Position numbers and translations under genes: made by a program. DNA of 64,000 nucleotides, from the NCBI RefSeq assembly GCF_036409155.1, contig NZ_JAZGLW010000001.1:3224001-3288000 (forward strand). The letters run 5' to 3'. The DNA is from Mycobacterium sp. 050128. GTDB taxonomy: Bacteria > Actinomycetota > Actinomycetes > Mycobacteriales > Mycobacteriaceae. The notes under the pieces are model-generated. The model saw only the letters and a list, made by a program, of their open reading frames with translations. It made no database searches and was not told the origin of the DNA. Shown piece by piece: positions 37,403 to 40,033 of the stretch (the first letter of the stretch is position 1; each line of letters starts with the position of its first letter).

Positions 37403-38431
37403 ATGAACGCGCTCACCGATGTCGGGGGCATCCGCGTCGGCCACTATCAGCGCCTGGATCCGGACGCGGCGTTAGGCGCCGGGTGGGCCAGCGGCGTGAC
37501 CGTCGTGTTGACCCCGCCGGGGACGGTCGGCGCGGTCGATTGCCGCGGCGGCGCGCCCGGCACCCGGGAGACCGATCTGCTGGACCCGGCCAACACGGTG
37601 CGGTTCGTCGACGCGGTCCTGCTGGCCGGCGGCAGCGCCTACGGTTTGGCGGCCGCCGACGGCGTGATGCGCTGGCTGGAGGAACACGAGCGCGGCGTGG
37701 CGATGAAGGGCGGACTGGTGCCCATCGTCCCGGGCGCGGTGATCTTCGACCTGCCGGTCGGAGGTTGGCATTGCCGGCCGACGGCGAAGTTCGGCTACGC
37801 GGCCTGCGAGGCCGCCGGCGCGACGGTGGCCGTCGGCACGGTCGGCGCCGGGGTGGGCGCGCGGGCGGGCGTGCTCAAGGGCGGCATCGGCACGGCGTCG
37901 ACGACGCTGCCGTCGGGCGTCACCGTCGGCGCGGTCGTCGCGGTCAATTCCGCCGGCGAGGTCGTCGACCGGACCACCGGCCTGCCGTGGATGGCGGATG
38001 CGATCAAGGAGTTCGCGTTGACGCCGCCGCCGCCCGACCAGATCGACGCGCTCGCGCAGCTGCCTTCGCCGCTGGAACCGCTGAACACGACGATCGCGGT
38101 GGTCGCGACCGACGCGGCGCTGAGCTCCGCGGGATGCCGGCGCGTCGCGATCGCCGCCCAGGACGGCCTGGCCCGCGCCATCCGCCCGGCGCACACCCCG
38201 CTGGACGGCGACACCGTGTTCGCGCTGGCGACCGGGGCGGTCGAGGTGCCCCCGCCGGCCGATGCGCCCGCGGCCATGTCGCCGGAGACGCGGCTGGTCA
38301 CCGAGGTGGGCGCGGCCGCGGCCGATTGCCTGGCCCGTGCGGTGCTGATCGGTGTGTTGTCGGCCGGGTCGGTCGCCGGAATACCGACCTACCGCGACGC
38401 CTTGCCCGGTGCGTTCCGGACAGGGAGCTGA
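37403..38431 (+). CDS. P1-family (DmpA/BapA-type) aminopeptidase (Rv1333 family)
   Basis: 342 residues. N-terminal NALTDVGGIRVGHYQRLD and LLAGGSAYGLAAADGVMRWLEE are hallmarks of the DmpA/L-aminopeptidase fold. These enzymes cut themselves to free a catalytic Ser or Thr at the start of the beta chain; the candidate is the Thr in LNTTIAVVATDAAL (about residue 228), inferred from the family. Substrate unknown. In M. tuberculosis the next genes are mec, cysO and cysM; here only their remains follow. Confidence 0.9.
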   Translation: MNALTDVGGIRVGHYQRLDPDAALGAGWASGVTVVLTPPGTVGAVDCRGGAPGTRETDLLDPANTVRFVDAVLLAGGSAYGLAAADGVMRWLEEHERGVAMKGGLVPIVPGAVIFDLPVGGWHCRPTAKFGYAACEAAGATVAVGTVGAGVGARAGVLKGGIGTASTTLPSGVTVGAVVAVNSAGEVVDRTTGLPWMADAIKEFALTPPPPDQIDALAQLPSPLEPLNTTIAVVATDAALSSAGCRRVAIAAQDGLARAIRPAHTPLDGDTVFALATGAVEVPPPADAPAAMSPETRLVTEVGAAAADCLARAVLIGVLSAGSVAGIPTYRDALPGAFRTGS

Positions 38432-38432
38432 C

Positions 38433-38571
38433 GTGTTGGTGATCCGCGCCGGCTCGCTGGACGCGGTCCGTCACACCCGCGAGCCGGTGGAGTCCGAGGG
38501 CATCGACCGGCGCCTATGCCGGTAGCCTGGATGATGCCGAGGACGCTCTGGAAGGGCAGTTATGGGCATGA
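38433..38571 (+). pseudogene. Deletion scar of mec-cysO-cysM
   Basis: Three pieces are joined in 139 bp. GTG 38433 starts VLVIRA, the opening of the Mec protease as I recall it from M. tuberculosis. It runs directly into SLDAVRHTREPVESEGI, which resembles an internal CysM segment (VDAVRRTRELVHTEGI), and then hits a stop at 38523. In another frame, 38506-38571 reads [19 protein letters not shown] and stop, nearly identical to the C terminus of CysM. So mec, cysO and most of cysM are lost by at least two deletions. The stop of the cysM tail still overlaps the rhomboid ATG at 38562, keeping the ancestral junction. The pathway lost is CysO thiocarboxylate-dependent cysteine synthesis. Confidence 0.85.
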
Positions 38572-39221
38572 GCCCGAGACAGCAACGCGTACCCGCTACA
38601 CGGAAAAAGCGGTCCGAGTGGGTGGTGGGCGGGGCCACCATCCTCACCTTTGTCGCGCTGCTCTACCTGATCGAACTGTTCGACCAACTGTCGCGGCATT
38701 CCCTGGACGCAAACGGCATCAGGCCGCTGGAAACCGACGGCCTGTGGGGGATCGTCTTCGCACCCGTGCTGCACGCCAACTGGCAGCACCTGATGGCAAA
38801 TACCGTTCCCCTGCTAGTGCTCGGATTTTTGATGACCCTGGCCGGGTTGTCCCGCTTCGTGTGGGCGACCGCGATCGTGTGGATCCTGGGCGGCTTCGGC
38901 ACCTGGCTGATCGGCAACTGGGGCAGCAACTGCGGGCCGACGGACCATATCGGGGCCTCCGGGCTGATCTTCGGCTGGCTGGCCTTTCTGCTGGTCTTCG
39001 GGATATTCGTGCGCCGGTTCGTCGACATCGTCATCGGCCTGGTGGTGCTGTTCATCTACGGTGGCGTGCTGCTCGGCGCGATGCCCGTGCTCGGTCAATG
39101 CGGCGGGGTGTCCTGGCAGGGCCACCTGTGTGGCGCCATCGCCGGCGTCGTCGCCGCGTATGTGTTGTCCGGTCCCGAACGTAAGGCCAGGGCGAAGCGA
39201 AAAGCCGGCACGCACTCATGA
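38562..39221 (+). CDS. Rhomboid-family intramembrane serine protease (Rv1337 family)
   Basis: 219 residues with six or so membrane helices. The catalytic Ser is in [16 protein letters not shown] (GxSG), the His in [17 protein letters not shown], and the conserved HxxxN of helix 2 is in [18 protein letters not shown]. Start is ATG 38562 or the in-frame ATG 38568. The N-terminal tail is about 20 residues shorter than in M. tuberculosis. Its start overlaps the residual cysM end, and its stop overlaps the murI start (ATGA). Confidence 0.94.
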
Positions 39222-40033
39222 GCTCGCGGTTAGCGCCCGTCGGGATCTTCGACTCCGGCGTCGGGGGACTGACGGTGGCCCGCGCGATCATCGACCAACT
39301 GCCGGACGAGGACATCGTCTACGTCGGTGACACCGGCAACGGCCCCTACGGCCCGCTCACCATTCCCGAGGTGCGCGCCCACGCCCTGGCCATCGGTGAC
39401 GATCTGGTCGGCCGCGGGGTGAAGGCGTTGGTGATCGCCTGCAACACCGCGTCGGCGGCCTGCCTGCGCGATGCCCGCGAACGCTACGACGTGCCCGTCG
39501 TCGAGGTGATCCTGCCGGCCGTGCGCCGCGCCGTGGCCACCACCCGCAACGGCCGCATCGGCGTGATCGGCACCCAGGCCACCATCACGTCGCACGCCTA
39601 CCAGGACGCGTTCGCCGCCGCCCGTGACACCGAGATCACCGCGGTGGCCTGCCCGCGCTTCGTCGACTTCGTCGAGCGCGGCGTGACGAGCGGGCGTCAG
39701 GTCCTGGGACTGGCCGAGGGATACCTGGAGCCGCTGCAACGCGCTCAGGTCGACACGCTGGTGCTGGGCTGCACGCACTACCCGCTGCTATCGGGGTTGA
39801 TTCAGCTGGCAATGGGCGAAAACGTGACGCTCGTTTCCAGCGCCGAGGAAACCGCCAAGGAAGTGCTCCGGGTGCTCACCGAACAGGATTTGCTGCGCCC
39901 GCATGACGCGCCGCCGGCGACGCGAGTCTTCGAAGCCACCGGCGACCCCGATGCCTTCACCAAACTGGCGGCGCGATTCCTGGGGCCCGCCGTCAGCGGC
40001 GTCCGGCCGGTGCACCGCTCGCCGATTGGCTAG
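39218..40033 (+). CDS. murI: Glutamate racemase
   Basis: 271-residue cofactor-independent racemase supplying D-glutamate for peptidoglycan. The two catalytic cysteines are in [10 protein letters not shown] and LGCTHYPLL, and the N-terminal [16 protein letters not shown] binds substrate. ATG 39218 overlaps the rhomboid stop. Length equals that of the M. tuberculosis enzyme. Confidence 0.97.

Follow-up and report, generated by a model that had tools for sequence, protein, structure and literature searches.

The mec-cysO-cysM operon encodes the JAMM hydrolase Mec, the sulfur carrier CysO and the cysteine synthase CysM. In M. tuberculosis, these genes are Rv1334-Rv1336. Excerpts of PMC4803200 give this Rv gene order in part and describe the upstream operon of M. 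tuberculosis as a direct SigH target, and excerpts of PMC11361707 discuss CysM as a drug target in M. tuberculosis and its route as a defense against oxidative stress. The absence of the operon in the M. avium complex (MAC) is already published: by the Figure 1 legend of PMC2989971, MAC has no cysM upstream of rhomboid, and the same paper reports a cysM pseudogene in M. leprae; Table 3 of PMC3227635 gives M. avium 104 without cysO and applies the name cysM there to MAV_0444. Across the titles and abstract openings returned by a literature search, we found no description of recurrent loss of the operon, of its scar, of an embedded promoter or of CysO without CysM, and the titles and abstract openings on Rv1337 included none recognizably about its promoter.

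Here, we analyzed one stretch of 64,000 nucleotides (the window; C1:3224001-3288000) from the assembly of Mycobacterium sp. 050128 (6.73 Mb, 52 contigs). Its nearest named relative by rhomboid is M. ahvazicum (98%), of the M. simiae complex.

A scar of mec-cysO-cysM precedes the rhomboid gene

Three plus-strand genes frame the locus: a peptidase family S58 gene (37403..38431; PF03576, E 1.3e-66), which we take to hold the Rv1333-like position; an Rv1337-like rhomboid protease gene (38562..39221; PF01694, E 7.9e-26), with a match in 198/198 congeners; and the glutamate racemase gene murI (39218..40033; PF01177, E 2.1e-19), which overlaps the rhomboid stop. Only 130 nt (38432-38561) separate the stop of the S58 gene from the rhomboid ATG at 38562. 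Relatives carry the same flanks, S58 peptidase on one side and rhomboid-murI on the other, around an intact operon, which places this interval where a remnant of that operon is expected.

Aligned with related mycobacteria, the interval and the first bases of rhomboid resolve into three plus-strand pieces that match mec and cysM of M. triplex, as the original prediction had read them, with the reading frames it gave. The mec 5' end comes first (38433..38451), with its GTG start, codons 1-6 and one further base (mec bases 1-19); positions 38402-38451 are identical to the M. triplex peptidase 3' end and mec 5' end at 45/50 sites in an ungapped alignment. An internal piece of cysM (GSLDAVRHTREPVESEGI; 38450..38504) follows, which is 50/55 identical to cysM of M. 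triplex, sp. 1100029.7 and M. montefiorense and 49/55 identical to that of M. genavense. The last piece is the cysM 3' end including its stop (38503..38571; 68/69 to M. triplex), which overlaps the rhomboid start. Judged from the alignment ends, the pieces meet in 2-nt overlaps, CG at 38450..38451 and TC at 38503..38504; hence, 19, 55 and 69 nt of mec and cysM are left, with overlaps of 2 and 2 nt.

We found that the whole M. triplex operon DNA, used as query, matches the strain's own genome twice (40 of 270 first-look candidates scored), both times in the scar (E 4e-14 for the internal piece and E 2.7e-25 for the 3' end). The 55-nt piece scores 45 against the operon, and the best score among 500 codon-shuffled operons is 26. 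Hence, a mec-cysO-cysM operon has been lost here, and these 130 nt are its scar. Sized against M. triplex, from the match coordinates and the mec start, the stretches removed are about 1,406 nt (~1.4 kb) and about 125 nt, and two such deletions would have left the mec start, the internal cysM piece and the cysM tail. The M. ahvazicum scar, read by eye, lacks the internal piece; there, the mec start runs directly into a decayed cysM tail that is longer than that of the window.

The scar also creates a chimeric 30-codon reading frame (VLVIRAGSLDAVRHTREPVESEGIDRRLCR; 38433..38525, plus strand), as read from the sequence, which probably has no function; its TAG stop is part of the -10-like element described below.

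Upstream of the scar, a SigH-like promoter (GGAATA-N16-CACGTT) lies in the peptidase 3' end of M. triplex, M. genavense, M. montefiorense and sp. 1100029.7. The same site in the window (38378-38403) has CGCCTT as its -10 half, and M. ahvazicum has GGAGTA as its -35 half; it looks as though this putative promoter had decayed once the operon was gone. The strict pattern GGAA-N17-21-SGTT in the peptidase 3' end occurs in 6/34 intact, 6/77 lost and 0/7 mec-cysO-only loci, and so gives no genus-wide signal.

The genome retains the O-acetylserine route

The strain's genome gave 0 matches to CysO, in a search that matched 127/198 congeners, and 0 matches to Mec, both in a first search and in a repeat that included M. 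triplex as a positive control. With all candidates scored, it has no CysM ortholog: apart from the 24-residue remnant, every match is a paralog with no more than 41% identity. Hence, the genome does not encode the full set of a CysO with C-terminal GG, Mec and CysM. The original prediction had allowed for a copy elsewhere; a relocated operon is rejected by these whole-genome searches for CysO, Mec and CysM, together with the confinement of the operon DNA matches to the scar.

We found CysE (C6:9020-9505) over its cut-off and adjoining CysK, which is also over its cut-off. Hence, the O-acetylserine route is present in this genome, in line with the original suggestion that the strain lost the CysO route and relies on O-acetylserine, and cysteine would be made via CysE-CysK, possibly aided by Cbs. 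The genome has eight PALP-family matches, seven of which were scanned, the eighth being a short piece at a contig end. Besides CysK, the scan returned a Cbs-like and a Cds1-like protein, both fragments that scored below cut-off, as well as threonine ammonia-lyase, ThrC, TrpB and one serine/threonine dehydratase-like piece. Two PALP pieces at contig ends (G000:C18:10819-11538 and G000:C7:161642-161806) cover complementary profile ranges (50-295 and 5-61) and may be the halves of one dehydratase gene split by an assembly break.

The operon appears to have been lost repeatedly in Mycobacterium

With 11 first-look candidates scored per genome, CysM (E 1e-90 or better) was found in 119/198 sampled congeners and in none of the other 79/198. 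CysO was found in 127/198, including all 119 genomes with CysM, so that no genome has CysM without CysO. The eight genomes with CysO and no CysM are five mec-cysO-only genomes, two with leprae-type relics and one fragmented genome. Around rhomboid, 118 distinct loci (80 named loci, the best 80 of 241 found, 40 hand-chosen loci and the window, minus 3 duplicates, and so not a random sample) comprise 34 with all three genes, 75 with none, 7 with mec-cysO only and 2 leprae-type relics.

Trees were built for 113 of these taxa, after removal of five short loci (L095, L105, L110, L130 and L162), from nine flanking genes and from the upstream and downstream genes apart. We found 19-20 cysM losses in these flanking-gene trees if regain is disallowed and 16-17 with sister losses merged and every node below 0.9 collapsed, counts that come from a single genomic region with some weak deep nodes; Fitch parsimony with regain allowed gives 15-18 changes. 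For the 34 taxa with an intact operon, the tree of the operon itself recovers most tip groups of the flanking-gene tree, and this broad agreement is what vertical descent would predict. The window and M. ahvazicum cluster with two species that retain the operon, M. genavense and M. triplex. The extent and internal content of the scars vary by lineage, even between the window and M. ahvazicum, and the CysM residues kept are 287-320 in one congener (G110) and 289-320 in another (G132).

These results suggest that the operon was lost separately about 16-20 times in the genus, a recurrence that the original prediction had missed. A private, recent loss in this strain is rejected by the 79/198 congeners without CysM and by these separate losses. 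We propose that the operon has been lost repeatedly because the O-acetylserine route makes it dispensable.

Three further observations concern the state of the locus elsewhere. In M. genavense, cysM (L060, G076:C1:455448-456405) is spread over two frames, one with residues 1-123 and one with residues 122-320, which looks like the onset of decay or else reflects a sequencing error. The cysM-less site of one congener (G195, L163) holds a reverse-strand O-methyltransferase gene of ~1 kb (PF00891, E 9.7e-40) between peptidase and rhomboid. Outside the genus, the distribution is also patchy, with CysM orthologs (E 1e-90) in 28/61 genomes sampled across the family; these 28 include one congener.

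A promoter-like element is conserved in the cysM tail

According to excerpts of PMC3898074, mycobacterial SigA-type promoters have a TANNNT -10 element, frequently with a CGN extension, and starts within genes are common; PMC10653884, in excerpt, reports that coding sequence is depleted of TANNNT and that the motif can initiate transcription within genes. We found such a motif on the plus strand of the cysM tail at 38520-38528 (CGGTAGCCT), a TANNNT preceded by CGN. On the strength of that consensus and of its conservation in relatives, we predict this site (38520..38528; CGNTANNNT, CGG-TAGCCT) to be the -10 promoter element of rhomboid-murI. Farther downstream on the same strand lies a Shine-Dalgarno-like GGAAGGG of rhomboid (38550..38556), read from the sequence.

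Among intact cysM genes, CGNTANNNT / TANNNT lies 16 codons from the end in 29/31, and TANNNT occurs in at most 3/31 at any other cysM position. These 31 genes come from 33 intact loci, two of which (L090 and L129) gave no frame under the filter; M. genavense, because of its frameshift, and both leprae-type loci had been set aside before that. The wobble base of the element's glycine codon is T in 29/31 genes, whose fourfold wobble bases are T in 6.4% of cases overall. Of the 168 fourfold columns, this one ranks first as an outlier, followed by that of the last cysM codon, which overlaps the rhomboid start.

The motif is also kept where cysM is gone and, with it, the need to encode protein. We found GGTANNNT in 67/82 loci lacking cysM, relative to 4.4% in shuffles of the same stretches, a count that overstates independence since the 82 loci are related. 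Counted by loss group, at least one member keeps GGTANNNT in 13/17, with L095, L105, L110, L130 and L162 assigned to groups by name or likeness and not by tree. The groups without it are the Mycolicibacter-like clade (0/11), two single congeners (G030 and G175) and MAG R9_38, which still has GCTAGCCT; M. helveticum also lacks GGTANNNT, within the large MAC group. Substitutions in the kept elements fall at N positions only (TAGCCT, TAACCT, TACCCT and TACGCT). The element is absent in 15/82 loci, including 11/11 of the Mycolicibacter-like clade, where the peptidase and rhomboid genes nearly abut. Hence, the element is not indispensable everywhere.

In the scrofulaceum group, GGTAACCT is present in 13/13 members, 14-20 nt before the aligned start, and in several members the interval has shrunk to GGTAACCTGCAGCTATG, which would be the layout of a leaderless promoter. 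Per base, CCGGTAGCCT is the best conserved block of the cysM-less loci (0.82-0.92), followed by GGAAGGG (0.74-0.82) and by the upstream bases at 0.24-0.77, a drop that in part merely mirrors the deletion endpoints. These figures come from a local alignment to the typed-in tail, averaged over a split of our own into 26 groups, with 11/82 low-scoring loci left out.

Elsewhere in the family, 17/26 cysM genes of other genera have TANNNT at the same place and 9/26 do not, and GGT is used at the element's glycine codon in 18/26 vs. 9/26 at a nearby glycine codon; these 26 come from 29 loci, with one mis-extracted locus (L195) and two divergent copies (L222 and L223) left out. Hence, the element may be older than the genus Mycobacterium.

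CysO and Mec persist without CysM

The mec-cysO-only state occurs in 7 loci. Five of the sampled genomes are of this kind, and with all candidates scored, their best match to CysM is a paralog at 40-41%. Losses of cysM only have left at least three scars, those of the M. gordonae group, of sp. 1423905.2 (G010) and of M. simiae, in a comparison in which the scar of MAG maxbin118 was misread. The C-terminal GG of CysO is kept in 6/7 of these loci; the exception is MAG AWTP1-6 (G047), in which the stop after GG is lost and six extra residues are added to the CysO end. The Mec HSH...D motif is kept in all six mec-cysO-only loci examined.

Without CysM, CysO is still under purifying selection, no looser than in species that have CysM: we found a dN/dS of 0.03-0.13 (9 pairs, those of M. 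simiae including branches that predate cysM loss) vs. 0.07-0.35 in 8 pairs of intact species. Three M. gordonae-group pairs give 0.03-0.05, with 2.0-4.5 nonsynonymous vs. 18.0-26.5 synonymous differences in cysO; since these pairs have one common scar, their divergence probably postdates the loss of cysM. Mec is somewhat relaxed, at 0.13-0.25 without CysM vs. 0.07-0.15 in intact species.

Whether these values reflect a function of CysO and Mec independent of CysM is, in our judgment, evenly balanced. If they do, the CysO thiocarboxylate may feed another acceptor, or CysO may be a ubiquitin-like modifier that Mec removes. Against the curated NCBIfam cut-offs for the SAMP and desampylase families, the M. 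triplex proteins fell short, with CysO at 53.2 of 60 (SAMP1) and Mec at 71.3 of 130 (desampylase).

Discussion

The 52 contigs of this assembly raise the thought that an intact operon was collapsed in it; we reject this as virtually impossible, since the junction is internal to a contig of 3.6 Mb, the search with operon DNA found no further piece in the genome, and the same place is empty in many other assemblies, among them that of the sister M. ahvazicum and several in a single contig. It is also very improbable that small repeats at the joints, coding for GSLDA and GSLDD, guided the deletion, as the original prediction had ventured. Both coding stretches do lie in the scar, but recombination between repeats would have removed one copy, whereas both are retained, and the joints are the 2-nt CG and TC overlaps elsewhere, which neither stretch spans; the joint positions thus contradict this idea, and we rejected it. 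As for the history of the genus, there might have been one or a few early losses, with the scattered intact operons regained by homologous recombination. Intact and empty species are closely interleaved in the trees, parsimony that allows regain needs 15-18 changes vs. 19-20 losses, and the mosaic rhomboid of M. triplex indicates that recombination happens at the locus: over its first 120 aligned residues this protein (L123, 6001-6666) matches that of the window at 111/120 and over the remainder at 67/105, which suggests recombination inside the gene. We nevertheless consider regain unlikely, because most tip groups of the 34 intact taxa are shared between the operon and flanking trees and because the remnants vary by lineage, with different CysM residues left in G110 and G132 and an extra internal piece in the window.

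The tail itself might be kept solely for the rhomboid ribosome-binding site that overlaps the cysM stop, the -10-like motif being incidental, and the fair conservation of GGAAGGG in empty loci is consistent with this. However, the best conserved block sits about 30 nt upstream of GGAAGGG, the scrofulaceum group lacks the GGAAGGG stretch yet has the -10-like motif, and no other fourfold column of cysM stands out as strongly as the glycine wobble T; we therefore hold the ribosome-binding site as sole cause to be improbable, to about the same degree as regain. Retention of the tail could still partly reflect the ribosome-binding site, or the mechanics of deletion, instead of the -10 element. The suggestion that cysM and rhomboid may be co-transcribed, made in the excerpted text of PMC2989971, also counts against an embedded promoter.

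Taken as a whole, the explanation that we favor, in which the operon was lost, the loss recurred across the genus, and the cysM tail was spared as promoter and ribosome-binding site of rhomboid-murI, is in our view quite likely correct. The last codons of cysM would double as promoter, with CGNTANNNT as the -10 element from which transcription would start, and as ribosome-binding site. Surviving deletions would usually end upstream of the element, and we propose that they stop short of the tail because it holds the downstream promoter and ribosome-binding site, so that selection for rhomboid-murI expression would set the deletion limit. The glutamate racemase gene murI is needed for growth, and a promoter at the cysM tail would make the expression of rhomboid-murI independent of the upstream operon and its stress control. 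Hence, the third piece of the scar was probably spared for the downstream promoter and ribosome-binding site, a point that the original prediction had overlooked. The comparison of loci at the sequence level gives good support to a pattern in which the operon is lost again and again while a promoter-like tail is spared.

These results indicate that a large part of the genus lives without CysM, despite the interest in it as a drug target, and the many natural losses are a ready comparison for the purpose of the CysO route. The lineages with CysO and Mec that lack CysM make a CysM-independent function of CysO directly testable. The spared tail suggests that the end codons of a gene can act as the promoter of the next, and that gene loss may uncover regulatory DNA concealed in coding sequence.

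Among known systems, mec-cysO-cysM of M. tuberculosis (Rv1334-Rv1336) has the gene order and flanks of the intact relatives, and the scar pieces align to mec and cysM; in the window, by comparison, the genes are absent and only remnants are left. The putative -10 element CGG-TAGCCT of the window fits the consensus of mycobacterial SigA-type promoters. In M. leprae, the same operon has decayed to the pseudogenes ML1168-ML1170, which are long degenerate genes, whereas the window has a clean deletion. The M. avium complex has an empty site upstream of rhomboid, as in the window; the papers on that complex cover few species, whereas here the comparison of loci points to about 16-20 losses, which left scars of different kinds and spared a promoter-like element.
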